Of a stretch of DNA of 64,000 nucleotides, positions 9,755 through 53,661 are shown one piece after another. The DNA comes from Methanosarcina vacuolata Z-761 (GTDB taxonomy: Archaea; Halobacteriota; Methanosarcinia; Methanosarcinales; Methanosarcinaceae), in the NCBI RefSeq assembly GCF_000969905.1, contig NZ_CP009520.1, positions 992,001 to 1,056,000 of the forward strand, written 5' to 3'. Both the position numbers and the translations under genes were made by a program. How positions within the stretch are numbered: the stretch's first letter is position 1; each line of letters begins with the position of its first letter. The notes beneath the pieces are model-generated. The model was not told the origin of the DNA, made no database searches, and worked only from the letters and a program-made list of their open reading frames with translations.

Positions 9755-9895
9755 TGGAACTCCTTCTTTCACTCAGGGCTAACTTACTCTATTTGTGCAA
9801 ACCTGCCTGATATTCCACAACCTCTTATTGTGAATAATATATAAAGTTTCGTATATAGTTCGTGTTTAGTTTCAGTCGAATACCCCGCTAGCTTG

Positions 9896-10013
9896 CAGGC
9901 TGTCCGACAATTACAGACAGTAATAATCGAATTCCTTTTTTTTCGATTTAAAGATCTTAAATACCTTCTTTTTGTTATCTATTTATTACCAATAGTAATT
10001 GTCGGACAGCCTG
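9896..10013. mobile_element. MITE of family M1, inserted in a palindrome loop (copy a)
   Basis: 118 bases with long terminal inverted repeats, CAGGCTGTCCGACAATTAC at the left and its complement at the right. It is flanked by the 4-base direct repeat CTTG (9892-9895 and 10014-10017). The host is a palindrome, CCCCGCTAG-CTTG-CTGCGGGG, seen uninterrupted at 26358-26377. The ends match the IS1182-like element at 40107-43159, so that element is the likely source of transposase. It is almost identical, in reverse orientation, to the copy at 22155. Confidence 0.8.
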
Positions 10014-10019
10014 CTTGCT

Positions 10020-10168
10020 GCGGGGATGGAAACTTCCCCGGTAACCGTTGATGATTATATAATTATCAATTCCATTTTTCGGTTGTTAACTTCTGTTCAA
10101 ACTAAACCGTTTAGGGTTACTATTTCCTTTGACGGAATTTCGAGCGGTGGCGTGAACATACCCCGTTG
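10020..10168. repeat. Diverged repeat R, left copy
   Basis: About 150 bases between two palindromes that each carry an M1 MITE. A diverged second copy lies at 10450-10596; both contain GTTGATGAT, TTCGG and GTTAACTTCTG in the same order. The start of the unit (AACTTCC..AGTAACCGTTG) recurs at 26381-26404 beside the empty palindrome. Function unknown. Confidence 0.5.
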
Positions 10169-10172
10169 CTTG

Positions 10173-10290
10173 CAGGCTGTCCGACAATTACTTTCGGTAA
10201 TAATAGAATTCCTTCTTTTTTTATTTAAAGGTCTTATTTGCTTTCTTTTTAGCACTTTTTTATTACTACCAATAATTGTCGGACAGCCTG
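10173..10290. mobile_element. MITE of family M1 in a palindrome loop (copy b)
   Basis: 118 bases with the same terminal repeats as copy a and the same 4-base target duplication CTTG (10169-10172 and 10291-10294). The interrupted palindrome reads CCCCGTTG-CTTG-CAGCGGGG. The interior differs from copy a at many positions, so it is an older or separate insertion. Confidence 0.8.
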
Positions 10291-10343
10291 CTTGCAGCGG
10301 GGTTCGCCAGCGCAACTTTGATTTTTAATTTAATATTCCACCA

Positions 10344-22132: not shown

Positions 22133-22303
22133 CGGGCGGCCACCCCATCCTAAACAGGCTGTCCGACAATTACTATTGGTAATAAATAGATAACAAAAAG
22201 AAGGTATTTAAGATCTTTAAATCGAAAAAAAAGGAATTCGATTATTACTGTCTGTAATTGTCGGACAGCCTGTAAAGGATGGGGTATGCTTCGCGCCGCC
22301 CGC
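22133..22303. repeat. Long palindromic repeat interrupted by a MITE
   Basis: Arms GCGGGCGGC...CCCCATCC on the left and GGATGGGG...GCCGCCCGC on the right pair around a TAAA loop in which an M1 MITE has inserted. The right flank of the IS1182-like element (43165-43185) carries one arm of the same repeat. Function unknown; a terminator or REP-like role is possible. Confidence 0.6.
22155..22271. mobile_element. MITE of family M1 in a palindrome loop (copy c)
   Basis: 117 bases, nearly the exact reverse complement of copy a at 9896-10013. The target duplication is TAAA (22151-22154 and 22272-22275), which is exactly the tetraloop of the stem CCCCATCC/GGATGGGG. Near-identity with copy a, 12 kb away, indicates recent movement. 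Confidence 0.82.
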
Positions 22304-26350: not shown

Positions 26351-26404
26351 TCGAATACCCCGCTAGCTTGCTGCGGGGATGGAAAACTTCCTCAGTAACC
26401 GTTG
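26351..26404. repeat. Empty palindromic target site of the M1 MITE family
   Basis: Matches the sequence around copy a (9873-9895 joined to 10014-10045): TTTCAGTCGAATACCCCGC before and GCGGGGATGG after, with CTTG once at the centre (26367-26370). It is the uninterrupted form of the site that carries a MITE at 9896-10013. The palindrome itself is 26358-26377. Confidence 0.75.
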
Positions 26405-28229: not shown

Positions 28230-28370
28230 TCAAAAAAGAAGAATTAGGGGTGTATAGAGTCAAATTTACAGAAGATTAGGCACACTGCCTCTACTTTGAA
28301 AATTAGTGGATAAAAAGTAAGTTCAATTTGTTTTTATCATTCGGAAGTCAGTCTGATCGGAACTACTGAT

Positions 28371-28519
28371 AATATAAGCAATAACTTCAGGGTTTGAAGC
28401 ACATAGAGCAAGAATCTCTTCACGTTTCATCAAGGAGAAAAAGAACTCATTTTATATCCAATTTTTCCTAGGAAAAAGGAAAAATTGTGTAGCCTTAACA
28501 AGGCTACCTGAATAGTTAC
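28371..28519 (-). mobile_element. Truncated left end of an IS66-type element, inverted
   Basis: 149 bases that are the reverse complement of 30510-30658, including the end GTAACTATTCAGGTAGCC, the CCTAGG palindrome, and the first codons of the transposase (MKREEILALCASNPEVIAY). Similarity stops abruptly at 28371. It leaves the region 28520-30509 bracketed by two inverted copies of the same IS end. Confidence 0.75.
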
Positions 28520-28582
28520 AAGATTACTTATGAAAAGGTACAAGAAATCCCTTATAACAGTTTAGGTTTGACTCAACACTAG

Positions 28583-30370: not shown

Positions 30371-30509
30371 AATACTACATGTAATTCTATTGTTCGCTAG
30401 TATCGTGACAATATAGTTATGAGTCACTTATATACTTTGAATTCAATATTATCTCTTATGTTAAATATAAATCTTAATGATAGTGAAGTTCTATTTCTTA
30501 AAAACTTTC

Positions 30510-32041
30510 GTAACTATTCAGGTAGCCTTGTTAAGGCTACACAATTTTTCCTTTTTCCTAGGAAAAATTGGATATAATATGAGTTCTTTTTCTCCTTGAT
30601 GAAACGCGAAGAGATTCTTGCTCTATGTGCTTCAAACCCTGAAGTTATTGCTTATATTATAAGTCTTGAGTCTCAAATAAAAGAACTCACTGAAAGATTG
30701 ACAGCCTTAGAATCTCGCTTAAATCAAAACAGTAGAAACAGCAGTAAACCTCCTTCTACTGACTATTTTTCCAAAGGAAAACCTAATCCCAAGAGTCTTC
30801 GTAAAAAGAGTGGCAAGAAACCTGGAGGTCAAGAAGGTCATTCAGGAACAACTCTTGAAATGGTTGATAATCCTGAGTAGATAATTGAACATTCTTTGAG
30901 TTGCTGCAAAGAGTGTGGACATCTTCTTGAGGATATTGAAGCTGAAGCTTATGAGAAAAGACAGATTTTTGATATTCCACCTGTAAATCTTACTGTTACG
31001 GAACACCGAAGTCAGATAAAGACCTGTCCTTACTGTGGAAGATTAAATAAAGCTGATTTTCCAGAATCCGTAAAATATCCATTTCAATATGGCCCTAATA
31101 TTTTGTCCTCTGCAATTTACTTTAAAAATCACCATTTCATTCCTTACGAAAGGATTTCTGAATTGTTTAATGATGTAATGGGGATAAAAATCTGTTCTGC
31201 TACTATTATTAAAGCAGAAAGAGATTGTTTCCAGAATCTTGAAGAATTTGAAAACATAATTCGAGAAAAGGTACTAGCTTCTCCTGTTATCCATTGTGAT
31301 GAAACTGGAATGAAAGTTCAAGGAAAAAGACATTGGCTTCATGTAGCTTCTACTGACAAATACACCTGTTATTTTTCTCATCCAAAAAGAGGTTCAGAAG
31401 CTATTGATGCTATGGGAATTCTTCCCGAGTTTAAAGGGGTAGCAGTTCATGATGGATGGAAACCTTACAACGGTTATAATTGTGATCATGCTCTTTGCAA
31501 TGCTCATCTCCAAAGAGAACTTACTGGAATTGAGGAGAATTATAAACAGCAGTGGGCTAAAGATATGAATGAGCTGTTATCTGAAATGAAAAAGTATACC
31601 GATGAGTGTAAAGAGCAGGTTAACTATCTTGATTTTGAACAAGTTAAGGCATTAGAAAAAAGGTTCAATGCTGTAATCGCGAAAGGAATTGAAGAAAATC
31701 CACCTTCTCTAAATCCTGAAAAACAAGGAAAACGTGGTAAGAATCCAAAAACCAAAGCAAGAAATCTGCTTGATAGGTTTATAGGACATAAAGAAAAGAT
31801 TCTGAGATTCCTGACAGACTTGAAAGTTCCGTTTGAGAATAATCAAGCAGAAAGAGATGTCAGGATGATGAAGCTACAGCAGAAAATATCAGGAACTTTC
31901 AGAACTGAACGGGGAGCGGAAGCTTTCTGCAGAATTAGGGCATATATTTCGACAATAAGAAAGAATGGTTTACCTGTTTTAGAGGGTATTCTCGCGGCGC
32001 TCAAAGGAGCGCCGCTAGCTAAATATACCCTGAATAGTTAC
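30510..32041 (+). mobile_element. IS66-type element (copy 1)
   Basis: 1532 bases between GTAACTATTCAGGTAGCC and CCTGAATAGTTAC. It carries one long transposase frame with a single UAG. Flanking 8-mers (AAACTTTC, AAAGAATG) do not match, so the copy has suffered rearrangement or its duplication has decayed. Its right end abuts the C-terminal codons of another IS66-type element. Confidence 0.8.
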
Positions 32042-39142: not shown

Positions 39143-40106
39143 AATTTTGCCTTGCCTGCGCCGGGTAATTTTATTTTCTTTAAAAATTTACATAGAATTG
39201 TATCAATTTTCACCCAAAAATAACTAAGGAATGATATAATATCAAGGAATTTTGTTACCATGAATGGTTATTTGGGAAATGGAACTATAAGAGCAATTCC
39301 TAGATTGAAAATTTGAAGTTATATGTTTAACATTATTCATTCTCTGACCCTTGAAAGACCATCTAAAGTTCCAAACCTGACATAAATACACTAAAATAAT
39401 ATCACGCAGACCCATTTTTTGTATAACTCCTCAAAAACCCCACTTGAGTTCTCGTTTATATTGCATTTTTATTACTTCAGTAGTAGTCCCCTAAATTTTT
39501 TGCTCAGAGTTATCTTACCCAGTTTATTAAATTACAGAGGTACAGGTTTTAATCTTATTTACAGATCTGAGTAGTAAATTTTAATATCATAGTAGTAAAT
39601 TTAATTATGTTTTTGACTTTATATATATGTCGATTCAGTTAAAATTTTCGATATAGAAAGTAACAAATGTGTTGAAAGTTTTCTCAGTAAAATGACTAAA
39701 TTTGTCAGAAATAACAGGAGTAAAATCAAAAAAGAACTCAGGATTAAATTAATCAATTACCAACCAAGTTGTGCTGATATTCCGGCAGAAGCTTTAATCC
39801 CGTATCTACTCTTTTGATTATCCTGCCGACTGTTATCAAAAGTTTTATTATTTTTGCAAGAATTTTATTATGTTTAATAACCGGCTTGATTAAATATGCC
39901 GTAAAACTTGCCTTTCAAAGATGTGTGAGTTTACGTTATCTAGAGACTTTGTTTGTGTATGCCTAATAAAAGAATAGTCCTTAAGGTAACGATTTTGTTA
40001 GGATGACAGGTATTTCTTTAACAAAATTTTTGAAAGATTTTAGTTTTCGTACCTGTAGCTTTATTACTACGGGAGCGCATAGGGTCACGAATACCCCATC
40101 CTTCAC
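39143..40106. other. Long AT-rich gap left of the IS1182-like element
   Basis: About 960 bases with no supported gene. A short direct repeat (AGTAGTAAATTT) occurs near 39570-39605. The last 45 bases (40062-40106) are a half palindrome shared in reverse complement with 22480-22525. Confidence 0.45.
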
Positions 40107-40599
40107 AGGCTGTCCGACAATTATCTCAGTTAATTGAGGTTTCTGCTTTGAATATATTAATGATTATATAATATTTCACTAATTTTTAGATTTATGGCGT
40201 TTATCAAATCTTCAAAGAATCAAGTTTGGACTTTACCTCCAGATATTCGAGATCTAATTCCTATAGATCATATCTGCTACTTGGTTGAATCTTTTGTAGA
40301 TGAGATGGATTTCAGCGAATTTGAAACAAGGTATGAGGGTTCTGGACACCCAGCTTATCATCCGTGCATAATGTGTAAAATTTTGATTCAGTCGATGCTT
40401 GATAGAGTTCGATCATCGCGAGCAATAGCTCGCAATGTCCGAGAAAATGTAGTTTACATGTATTTGGCTGAAAACCTACAACCGGATTTTAGAACAATAA
40501 GTGACTTCAGAAAAGATAATGAAAAATTGATTACAGAACTGTTCAAAAACACAGTTAAAGCAGCTAAAGATCTAGGTATAATAGGTCTTGAGCAGTTAA

Positions 40600-41919
40600 G
40601 GAATGACAAAAATATAAATTCAAATATATTCATTGCCTAAAGCTAATTCTGTTTTAACTGATACAACCAGAAAGGACTTTACTTAAATGCTACGCAAAAA
40701 ATACCCTGAAGAAACAGAAAAGCAAATGAAATCATTTTTTGATTCTTTGAATGAGAGAGACAGAAGGAGATACGCAGCCATAGAAACAATGAAGTTAGGT
40801 CATGGCGGACAAAAGTATATAAGTAGTGTAATGAGCTGTCATTTTCAAACTATCATGGCTGGAATTAATGAAATCACTAATGGTATAGAAACTCCAGATA
40901 ACAGGATTCGAAAGCCTGGTGGAGGTAAAAAGAAAATCATCGACAATGTGGAAAATATAGATGAAGTTTTCTTTGAGATCTTAAAAGATCATACTGCTGG
41001 AAGTCCTATAGACGAAGAAATAAAATGGACAAACCTCTCCCTTAAAGATATTTCAAATGCTTTCAAATCGAGAGATATGAATATATCACCATATGTAGTA
41101 AAGCAGCTATTGAAGAAACATGGTTTTGTAGAAAGAAAAATGACTAAAGCTGTCACAATGAAAGACTGTAAAGACAGAAACAGGCAATTTGAGAGAATTA
41201 AAGAGCTGAAAGAAGAGTACTCTAACAGCGAAAATCCGATTATCAGTATAGATGTTAAAAAAAGAATTCATAGGTAATTTCTACCGAGACGGAAAATTTT
41301 ATTGTACTGGACCGGTAAAAGTATATGATCATGACTTCAATACATTTTCAAATGGTGTCGTAATTCCACATGGCATATACGACGTGAAACTTAATGAAGG
41401 CTATATCACTTTAGGAACCAGTAAGGATACGAGTGAATTTTGTTGTGACTGTATTAAATACTGGTGGGAAAATTACGGCAAGGAAAATTACCCCAGTTCA
41501 TATAGCATTTTGGCTTTTGCAGATGGTGGTGGAAGCAACTCAAGTAGACATTATATTTTCAAGGAAGATTTACAAAAGCTGGTAAATGAAATTGGAATTG
41601 AAATTCGAATGGCTCATTACCCACCATACACTTCGAAATATAACCCAATTGAACATAGGTTATTCTGCCATGTAACGGCTGCCTGTAAAGGTGCCGTTTT
41701 CAGCAATATTGATGTGGTTAAAAGTCTGATTGATAAGACTTCGACATCAACAGGATTGAAAGTGTTTTCGACTATCAAGGATAAAGTTTATGCGACAGCA
41801 AGAAAAGTAAGTGAAAACTTCAAGAAAAATATGAAAATTGTATTTGATGATTATTTGGGAAAATGGAATTATAGAGTAATTCCAGAAGTGAAAACTTGAA
41901 GTTATATTTCAAACGTTCC
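40600..41919 (+). mobile_element. ISAzo13-family element nested in the IS1182-like transposase
   Basis: 1320 bases with imperfect inverted ends (GGAATGACAAAAATATAAAT on the left; GGAACGTTTGAAATATAACT reading in from the right) and a 3-base duplication TAA (40597-40599 and 41920-41922). Removal of the element plus one TAA restores the IS1182 reading frame exactly. Confidence 0.83.
40687..41899 (+). CDS. ISAzo13-family transposase, two frames joined at an A7 run
   Basis: The first frame (40687-41277) has RYAAIETMKLGHGGQKYISS, RIRKPGGGKKKIID, LSLKDISNAFKSRDMNISP and ends IISIDVKKRIHR. The second (41252-41899) has KKEFIGNFYRDGKFYCTG, LAFADGGGSNSSRHYIF (catalytic Asp) and YTSKYNPIEHRLFCHV (catalytic Glu), all ISAzo13 hallmarks. 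They meet at seven A residues (41257-41263); one A fewer or two more gives the uninterrupted SIDVKK(K)EFIGNF. Either mutation or slippage on the A run explains this. Together they make about 400 residues. Confidence 0.8.
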
Positions 41920-43159
41920 TAAGCATTGACGGATCCATAGTAAAAGCTTCTGCGTCAAAAAATAGTGTGGTTTTGGAAGAGGTCTTGAAAGTTATTGGAG
42001 AATACGTCAACAATGAATTAAAAAAAGGTATAGAAGTAGACAAACTTGAAGATGAGCATTTTGGTAATTGCCGTGGTTACGATCAATTGAATGAAAATGA
42101 AAAGTACAAAGTAAAAGCTGTAGTTGCAAGGTACATAAAGCAAGTAAATAAAGATAATTCTGATGACCGTAAAAATGAGATAAAAAACATAGTTGAAGAA
42201 TCACTTGAAGAATTTAAAAAAGACGGTATTGATAAAGTAAGCTTGACCGATAAAGAATCTCGTTTTATGAAAAACAAAAAGAGAGTATTTGAACTGGCAT
42301 ACAATTCTCAAATAACTGTGGATCATAAACTGGGGATTATTGTTGCAAATGCTGTATCTCAAGATAGAACTGATATGTATCAATTGGAGCCACAGATTAA
42401 ACTTGTGGAAGAAAATTGTGGTTTATTAAAAGAAGGCACTAAAATATGTGCAGACAGTGGATACTATAGTGGAAATAATATTCATTATTTGAATGATAAA
42501 AAATTGGATCCATACATTCCAGGGCAAAAAGAAATAGCTAAATCAAAAACAGAAAACGTTGAAGATACTATATTCGACACTAGCAATTTTCAATATGACG
42601 AAGAAAATGATGAGTTTATATGCCCTGAAAATCAAAGATTGAAGTTTTTATACGAGGGTCATGAGAAAGAAAGGAAGAAAAAGTATAGACTTTACAAGGG
42701 GACTAAATGTAAAAAATGTGAATTCGGCAAAAAGTGTACAAATAGGATGGATGGAATTAGGCATTTAAAAATAGATGAATTTTCAAAGGAAAGAAAGCAA
42801 TTAGCCGATAAAATGGGGACAAAATAAGCTAAAAGAATATATGGACAAAGAAAGCAGGTAGTGGAACCTGTAATTGGGAACTATAAAGAGAATTTAGGGT
42901 TTAGAGAATTTTTAACCAGAGGACTGAAATCAGTCAGAAACGAATTTAATTTAGTGTGTACTGCAGCTAATTTAAGGAAAACATGGATTTACTCAAATAA
43001 AAACGAGATCATTGGAAAGAATATTGGAAATAGATGGAATTTTTCATTTTAAAAATTGAGTCACCACAAAAAATAGATAACAAATTTGTATAAAGAAAAA
43101 ATTCTAACCTACCAACATACTACTTTATTTCATTACTATCAGTAATTGTCGGACAGCCT

Positions 43160-43564
43160 CTTTAGGGTGGGGTGGCCGCCCGCAATTTGATTCATATATT
43201 GCCTCAAGCGACCCTGTATCCGACATATTTTGGAGACACGCCACCAAATGCGAATTTTATCTGCAAAATATAGAAAAACGTGCCCTACAGTTTACAGGAT
43301 AGCTTTTTTGGAGTCTCAATTTATGCTTTGCAAGAGATCATTCACGGAAAATTTATATTTATGGAGCTATTTATACATGACTTTCCCTAAATAACTTAAT
43401 TTTATATTCATTTATACAAAAAAGGATAACTAATAAGATTATTCTCCAATTATTTTCATTGATTAAATGAATTGCAGTAAATTTATATGATAGTTTTTCA
43501 TATTAGTCTCCAAAAAGTTAATATCGCAGTATATATTAGACACTTATAATATTATCGGAATTAA
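43160..43564. other. Half palindrome and non-coding gap before the GT2 gene
   Basis: The first 30 bases are an arm of the palindrome also seen at 22130-22150 (GGGTGGGGTGGCCGCCCGC). The rest is AT-rich with no gene that I can support; it probably includes the promoter of the following operon. Confidence 0.45.
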
Positions 43565-44596: not shown

Positions 44597-44706
44597 TTTC
44601 TTTATGTAAGTGGCTGGCAGTTTATAAACTTCATTTTTCAGGCAGTAGATAAATTGGAGCTTTATATTTGTTATATAATTCTCTTGAGATACCAATACTG
44701 TGCTGA

Positions 44707-44916
44707 TTTCAGTCTAATAATTTCAGTCTAATAATTTCAGTCTAATAATTTCAGTCTAATAATTTCAGTCTAATAATTTCAGTCTAATAATTTCAGTCTA
44801 ATAATTTCAGTCTAATAATTTCAGTCTAATAATTTCAGTCTAATAATTTCAGTCTAATAATTTCAGTCTAATAATTTCAGTCTAATAATTTCAGTCTAAT
44901 AATTTCAGTCTAATAA
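44707..44916. repeat. Tandem array: 15 perfect copies of a 14-bp unit
   Basis: Unit TTTCAGTCTAATAA, repeated 15 times without a mismatch over 210 bases, ending about 190 bases before the wecB start. A 14-base unit is not a multiple of three, and no gene covers it. Lack of decay suggests recent expansion or contraction by slippage. Confidence 0.97.
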
Positions 44917-45108
44917 TGTGTTAGTTCGATCCACAATATGGCGAATACAAACGACATGATATTCTTCGAATAACATGCACAACCAATGAAAGTGTTTGCA
45001 GATGGCAGCATTTTCATGCTAAATATGGTGAATAATACTTGAGAATTTATGTTGAATTGGTTGCTAAAGTAATAAAAACTAAGATTATTAAAAAAGGTGT
45101 TAATAGCA

Positions 45109-52980: not shown

Positions 52981-53268
52981 TCCTGATAATTGGAATAGAA
53001 TAAGTTTGGAATTAGTTTTACATGTATATAAGTATAACTTTAGTTGACATTACCAACAGTTTTAAATCTCATCATAGCCGTAATAGCACGGAAATTTATA
53101 TTGGTGACTTATATACTCTGATTCCTTATACATATATAAACTACTCAAATATTATATTTTATAATTAAATATTTTGCAGCATTAATTTTGCTATTAAAAC
53201 AAAATGTCATTATGGCATAAAAGTCAACTGTAGTTAGTAGAAATCATTACATCTTCAGGGAGTGACTA

Positions 53269-53370
53269 GTATCTTGAAAATTTAGTTATTGGTCACATGT
53301 TAACTCTGAATCGCTATCTGTTGATGAAAAGCTATCAAAGATTTGCTCAATAACTAAGTTGCCATGATAC
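53269..53370. mobile_element. MITE array unit A (family M2)
   Basis: 102 bases starting GTATCTTGAAAATTTAG and ending GTTGCCATGATAC, between TA at 53267-53268 and 53371-53372. It resembles unit C and the copy at 10344. Confidence 0.75.
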
Positions 53371-53372
53371 TA

Positions 53373-53473
53373 GTATCATGGCAACTTAGTTATGATACTT
53401 CAATACATAGACAATACTTCATCTGTAGTCCCGTTCTTAATTATAATGATCCATAACTAAATTGCTTAGACAC
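53373..53473. mobile_element. MITE array unit B (family M2)
   Basis: 101 bases starting GTATCATGGCAACTTAG and ending AATTGCTTAGACAC. It shares its TA dinucleotides with units A and C and is nearly the same as the copy at 36350-36452. Confidence 0.75.
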
Positions 53474-53475
53474 TA

Positions 53476-53577
53476 GTGTCAAGAAAATTTAGTTATTGGT
53501 CATTTAATGCTCATAATCATTGTGTGTTGACAAGAAGCTATTAAATATTATGCTCTATAATTAAGTTGCCATGACAC
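53476..53577. mobile_element. MITE array unit C (family M2)
   Basis: 102 bases starting GTGTCAAGAAAATTTAG and ending GTTGCCATGACAC, sharing TA with units B and D. Confidence 0.75.
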
Positions 53578-53579
53578 TA

Positions 53580-53661
53580 GTGTCACGTCAACAGCAAAAT
53601 GTTGTATAATATCAATTACAACTATGCAGAATCATTCAATCCTTATGAATTTACGCGACAC
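53580..53661. mobile_element. MITE array unit D (family M3)
   Basis: 82 bases starting GTGTCACGTCAACAGC and ending TTACGCGACAC, between TA at 53578-53579 and 53662-53663. Same length as and related to the copy at 15295-15376. It differs in its interior from units A-C, so two families share the array. Confidence 0.72.

Follow-up and report, generated by a model that had tools for sequence, protein, structure and literature searches.

Some members of the IS1182 family of insertion sequences are reported to target palindromes (Siguier 2015, cited in PMC4923244 and PMC5678879). The staphylococcal IS1182-family elements IS1272 and TnSha1 are described as entering inverted repeats that have no primary sequence consensus (PMC4923244; PMC5678879), and PMC5678879 infers that IS1272 replaces or deletes the stem-loop without generating a duplication; duplication of the loop alone is drawn in the same paper (its Figure 13) as a hypothetical pathway c. 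For the family as a whole, PMC7335449 gives target duplications of 2-60 bp. Insertion into repetitive extragenic palindromes is reported for IS1397, ISKpn1, IS621, ISPpu9 and other REP-targeting elements (PMC1525189; PMC8450116), of which IS1397 and ISKpn1 are placed in the IS3 family and IS621 in the IS110 family (PMC1525189), and a fixed 4-bp target, the sequence TTAA, is described for piggyBac (PMC7351741).

The Methanosarcina element that we describe here has its transposase family and its use of inverted-repeat targets in common with IS1272 and TnSha1; in IS1272, however, the stem-loop is lost without duplication, whereas in Methanosarcina the stem is kept and the loop duplicated, as in pathway c. 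The element is set apart within the IS1182 family by a tight, loop-sized duplication of 4 bp and by its archaeal MITEs, from the REP-targeting elements (which have other transposase families and use one REP family per species) by its occupation of several unrelated hairpins, and from piggyBac, whose target is likewise 4 bp long, by the latter's dependence on the TTAA sequence. IS200/IS605 elements have no terminal inverted repeats, produce no target duplication and encode an HUH transposase, whereas terminal inverted repeats, a 4-bp duplication and a DDE transposase are all present in this case. Palindrome targeting is thus already known for the family; the loop-only duplication appears to be new and looks like a natural case of pathway c. 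The literature searched, with ISfinder outside its scope, yielded neither a Methanosarcina IS1182 MITE nor an observed loop-only duplication, and priority is uncertain.

The window, by which we mean the whole 64,000-nucleotide stretch of the Methanosarcina vacuolata Z-761 genome that was analysed, contains three copies of the MITE, each bracketed by the two arms of a hairpin:

9883-9895, + strand: left hairpin arm of copy a, CCCCGCTAG, and first loop duplicate CTTG (9892-9895)
9896-10013, + strand: MITE copy a, 118 bp, with the 18-nt terminal inverted repeat CAGGCTGTCCGACAATTA
10014-10025, + strand: second loop duplicate CTTG (10014-10017) and right arm of copy a, CTGCGGGG
10161-10172, + strand: left arm of copy b, CCCCGTTG, and loop CTTG (10169-10172)
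10173-10290, + strand: MITE copy b, 118 bp, 95/118 identity with copy a
10291-10302, + strand: second CTTG (10291-10294) and right arm of copy b, CAGCGGGG
22143-22154, + strand: left arm of copy c, CCCCATCC, and loop TAAA (22151-22154), in a family A host unit
22155-22272, - strand: MITE copy c, 118 bp, equal to copy a reversed
22273-22284, + strand: second TAAA (22273-22276) and right arm of copy c, GGATGGGG

An earlier note on this DNA had assigned copies a, b and c to palindromes with CTTG, CTTG and TAAA duplicates, and the coordinates and arms bear this out. All three copies lie at a palindrome centre, with the 4-bp loop doubled and both arms kept, an outcome that differs from the stem-loop replacement of IS1272. 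Copies a and c are identical at 118 of 118 positions, yet their hairpins and loops differ.

A fourth hairpin in the window, absent from the earlier note, is occupied by a much longer element with the same terminal inverted repeat:

40094-40105, + strand: left flank of the parent insertion sequence, arm CCCCATCC and TTCA
40106-43160, + strand: parent IS1182-family insertion sequence, 3055 bp, its transposase broken by an ISAzo13-type gene
40194-40640, + strand: N-terminal part of the IS1182 transposase (DUF772)
40687-41899, + strand: inserted ISAzo13-type transposase in two frames (DDE_Tnp_ISAZ013)
41967-42827, + strand: DDE part of the IS1182 transposase (DDE_Tnp_1, DDE_Tnp_1_6)
43161-43172, + strand: right flank, TTTA (one mismatch to TTCA) and arm GGGTGGGG

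The sequences identify all three copies as MITEs of a DDE insertion sequence from the IS1182 family, since the copies have the same ends as the element at 40106-43160 and IS1182-type transposase parts lie inside the latter. The terminal repeats of this insertion sequence match the 18-nt repeat with no mismatch on the left and one on the right, the ends of the MITE copies differ from its right end at 4-7 of 32 nt, and the terminal repeat of the family as a whole has the consensus [CG]AGGCTGTCCGACAATTA. At 118 bp the copies are non-autonomous, and they share with the insertion sequence both their ends and the 4-bp duplication rule. Intact copies of the insertion sequence in genus genomes measure about 1.72-1.73 kb, and all three intact genus transposases match the NCBIfam IS1182 profile at 407-429 bits (cut-off 270); profile match, DDE domain, terminal inverted repeats and palindromic target all agree with the family assignment. 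Within the M. vacuolata genome we saw only the broken copy and no intact parent, and the MITEs presumably moved in trans while an intact insertion sequence was present. An AlphaFold model of the transposase, built from 6 sequences, reached a pLDDT of 42 and was not used, and a sequence search of the PDB with the transposase profile gave chance matches only.

The hairpins that host these elements also occur unfilled, both in the window and elsewhere in the same genome:

9870-10323, + strand: family B host repeat unit (210 nt without its inserts) with two hairpins and one MITE in each; its joined flanks match an unfilled unit, L217, without gaps
26358-26378, + strand: empty family B hairpin CCCCGCTAGCTTGCTGCGGGG, with CTTG once

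The second of these, an uninterrupted palindrome of which none was found in 100 shuffles, had been described as equal to the copy a target in its unfilled state, with a single CTTG, and the sequence agrees. L217, at 4.469 Mb of the same genome, is the stronger empty-site evidence, as an unfilled 210-nt repeat that contains both target hairpins with each loop present once. When the flanks of copy a are joined they match L217 at 173/176 positions, and those of copy b at 175/179, in both cases without a gap, which indicates that both hairpins of one repeat unit in the window have been filled. For copy c, the joined flanks match a further locus (L208) at 177/185 positions, with one gap that lies away from the junction. 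At up to 3 mismatches, the genome holds 6 uninterrupted family A hairpins and 19 of family B, with no match for the control. Host repeats A and B gave no credible match in Rfam; a link to IS200/IS605-type elements is a guess, and TnpB zinc-ribbon domains, found at 5 places in the genome, were not matched to the hairpins.

The MITE is present in 24 of 30 genus genomes (E<=1e-6). From the listed genus matches that looked full length we took 100 MITE copies, of which 99 were usable, and these, together with 10 elements of the M. vacuolata genome, 14 full-length insertion sequences and L254 (an insertion sequence from another genus, see below), make up 124 two-ended sites; L119 (cut by a contig end), L105 (the same place as L100) and L092 (partial) were dropped, as were L233, L247-L249, L274 and L275, which are repeat fetches of the same insertion sequence copies. 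An exact 4-bp direct duplication flanks 92 of the 124 sites, and the exact duplications called in a 109-site set never exceed 4 bp. Full-length insertion sequences, for example L091, L099, L103 and L104, likewise lie inside hairpins with a 4-bp duplication. The earlier note had named a majority of copies outside palindromes, or duplications of other lengths, as the outcome that would count against its reading of the insertions as centred on palindromes and duplicating a loop of 4 bp. Related genomes instead show the pattern to be general, with a dyad axis that falls on the duplication and with unrelated stems in other phyla.

The remaining 32 sites have no exact 4-bp duplication; several are one base off, and in 6 the loop is inverted. 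An inverted loop order is expected from recombination between inverted copies, and these sites are probably recombinants or decayed copies. Two loop copies that are inverted (TTTA..TAAA) or mixed were noted at L081, L098, L100, L102, L160, L164 and L167, and such pairs suggest recombination between inverted elements; at L164, arms from two different hairpin families are joined. One copy of the insertion sequence (L232; 89% identity), located in a hairpin of family A, came from a contig of a Parabacteroides MAG, which is probably a misplaced Methanosarcina contig.

Outside Methanosarcina, all four insertion sequence copies with both ends of the TGTCCGA type sit in hairpin loops and are flanked by a duplication of 4 bp: L234 (Woesearchaeota), L236 (Dadabacteria), and L252 and L254 (two other Methanosarcinaceae genera), with loops TTTA, CAAG, TGAA and TAAA, respectively, and with unrelated stems, that of L254 being ATGACATTGC/GCAATGTCAT. 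Two non-Methanosarcina loci with TGTCCCA-type ends, L261 and L269, have no duplication and no clear hairpin; L268 was dropped because its two ends made a poor pair, and the remaining distant loci gave no recognisable pair of ends. Among plasmid-borne IS1182 relatives, of which we sampled 8 from 60 listed of 2643 matching records, ends were ambiguous and the 4-bp rule was not seen; in 3 of the 8 (L278, L280 and L282) the flanks are inverted repeats but show no 4-bp duplication, again with ambiguous ends. A scan of viral contigs returned 343 pattern matches and no relatives.

What is observed directly is that the elements share their ends, duplicate 4 bp and insert on the dyad axis, that empty sites exist, that the stems used are numerous and unrelated, and that intact insertion sequences behave in the same way. 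The explanation that we favour, and consider likely to be correct, is that these are IS1182-family MITEs whose target is joined 4 bp apart around the palindrome dyad, with the loop duplicated as a result. By this mechanism, the transposase would act in trans on the MITEs and would join the 3' ends of the element to both strands of the palindromic target, 4 bp apart and flanking the dyad centre, such that, on either strand, joining would take place 5' of the loop; repair of the gaps would then double the loop without altering the two stem arms. The data fit pathway c, and a 4-bp staggered attack on the dyad of an ordinary duplex would leave an identical trace. The sites are a natural and repeatedly observed example of a DDE transposon whose loop-length duplications lie precisely at hairpin tips.

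How the target is recognised bears on the main alternative, in which a transposase homodimer reads a symmetric sequence (approximately CCC N4 C-TTTA-G N4 GGG) in duplex DNA and strikes hairpins only because repeat families carry that sequence. By folding, at least 5 enclosing pairs form at 71 of 91 sites versus 17% of 1200 background 32-mers, but 70% of the combinations of arms taken from different sites also reach this number, because CCC/GGG is common to the sites, and pooled folding is thus weak evidence. Once dereplicated to 36, the sites show a sharp peak in the Watson-Crick fraction, 0.64, where the axis is that of the duplication, versus 0.21-0.41 at shifted axes; they form 198 pairs, versus 143.1 (sd 6.7) when right arms are permuted, with none of 10,000 permutations reaching 198. 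The dyad axis is exactly the centre of the duplication, and the arms covary beyond what column composition allows, which argues against the duplex-sequence alternative; when the set is cut to the 5 sites least like one another, the covariation signal is weak (274 of 5000 permutations come up to the observed value). At least 6 of 9 rigid pairs are present at 50 of 92 sites versus 1.5% of genome positions.

Sequence is nonetheless constrained at these sites, in ways that favour duplex reading. C-G pairs prevail at stem positions 1 and 6-8, and loops are nearly always TTTA/TAAA (72 of 91), CTTG/CAAG or TTCA/TGAA. When a 464-kb sample of the M. vacuolata genome is scored with a weight matrix built on the sites, just 24 positions come up to the lower-quartile score, such that sequence by itself is selective. 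In the same sample, 149 palindromes that are strong but differ in sequence stand unused; 10 of these have CC/GG at positions 6-8 and 6 have a loop of the kind used. Set against this, empty positions matched for sequence pair less than sites do (mean 3.6/9, n=80, versus 5.2/9, n=16; P 1.2e-5; P 0.023 for folding energy), in a comparison that scored sites with their own family left out and genome positions from all sites. In addition, the lowest family-left-out scores include the most palindromic site, L254, which has no CCC and scores -7.7 but forms 9/9 pairs; L099, L104, L236 and L252 also combine low sequence scores with 7-8/9 pairs. We regard the duplex-sequence alternative as possible but doubtful, and a target read as structure as more likely than not. 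The proposal of the earlier note that structure, not primary sequence, is recognised holds in part: palindrome centring and covariation speak for it, while the C-G stem positions, the narrow set of loops and the 149 unused palindromes speak against the exclusion of sequence. We infer that the target may be bound as an extruded hairpin or cruciform, and that stem sequence (C-G pairs beside the loop and at positions 6-8, with a T-rich loop) probably adds to recognition; an extruded hairpin and a duplex dyad met by a symmetric transposase look alike in sequence data. With many filled and empty sites and with intact transposases at hand, the way in which IS1182 transposases recognise a target, by the shape of the DNA or by its sequence, becomes directly testable.

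Two further readings are far less plausible. That the palindrome and 4-bp repeats are parts of the element itself, or of a composite that moves as a whole, would suit the repetitive nature of several flanks (families A and B; HEARO), but is very improbable given the existence of unfilled single-loop repeats (gap-free matches for a and b, with the 6 family A and 19 family B hairpins), the different hairpins and loops around identical copies a and c, and stems that vary by site. It is equally improbable that insertion is near-random and that only copies in intergenic hairpins persisted: the targets identified here seem to be mostly repeats outside genes, but the centre of the duplication and the dyad coincide with single-base precision, and purifying selection would favour harmless regions rather than an exact hairpin centre.

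Returning to insertion around the palindrome dyad, some of the hairpins used belong to other mobile elements. Across 38 loci scanned, 5 MITE copies (L137, L165, L169, L177 and L180) overlap and interrupt the first hairpin of HEARO RNA (RF02033), the model of which has a UAAA loop in that hairpin; the HEARO match at L165 is below the gathering score. Use of HEARO hairpins as targets is not described in the literature searched. No HEARO match in the M. vacuolata genome passed the search threshold, and the targets there are repeat families A and B. It is about an even chance that an archaeal and bacterial clade of IS1182-family transposases (terminal inverted repeat AGGCTGTCCGA) targets the tips of extruded hairpins, joins 5' of the loop on both strands as in pathway c, and in Methanosarcina preys on hairpins that belong to other mobile elements, among them the first hairpin of HEARO RNAs (OMEGA guides), which it interrupts. 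The sites show one class of mobile element lodged in the hairpins of others (REP-like repeats and HEARO guide-RNA elements), which are not deleted. Three further MITEs, at L171, L175 and L181, lie past a HEARO at a distance of about 110 nt, and one genus genome (G023) has 45 HEARO matches.

The window contains other repeats as well. About 15 head-to-tail copies of the 14-bp unit ATTTCAGTCTAATA occupy an intergenic region at 44706-44917, and a 171-nt inverted repeat, 95% complementary and 1958 nt apart (28365-28535 and 30494-30664), flanks a methyltransferase-like gene, with Mutator-type and IS66 transposases nearby. A further palindromic repeat family, with the centre ACTAGTGT/ACTAGTAT, is found at 30396, 36423 and 53265-53612.
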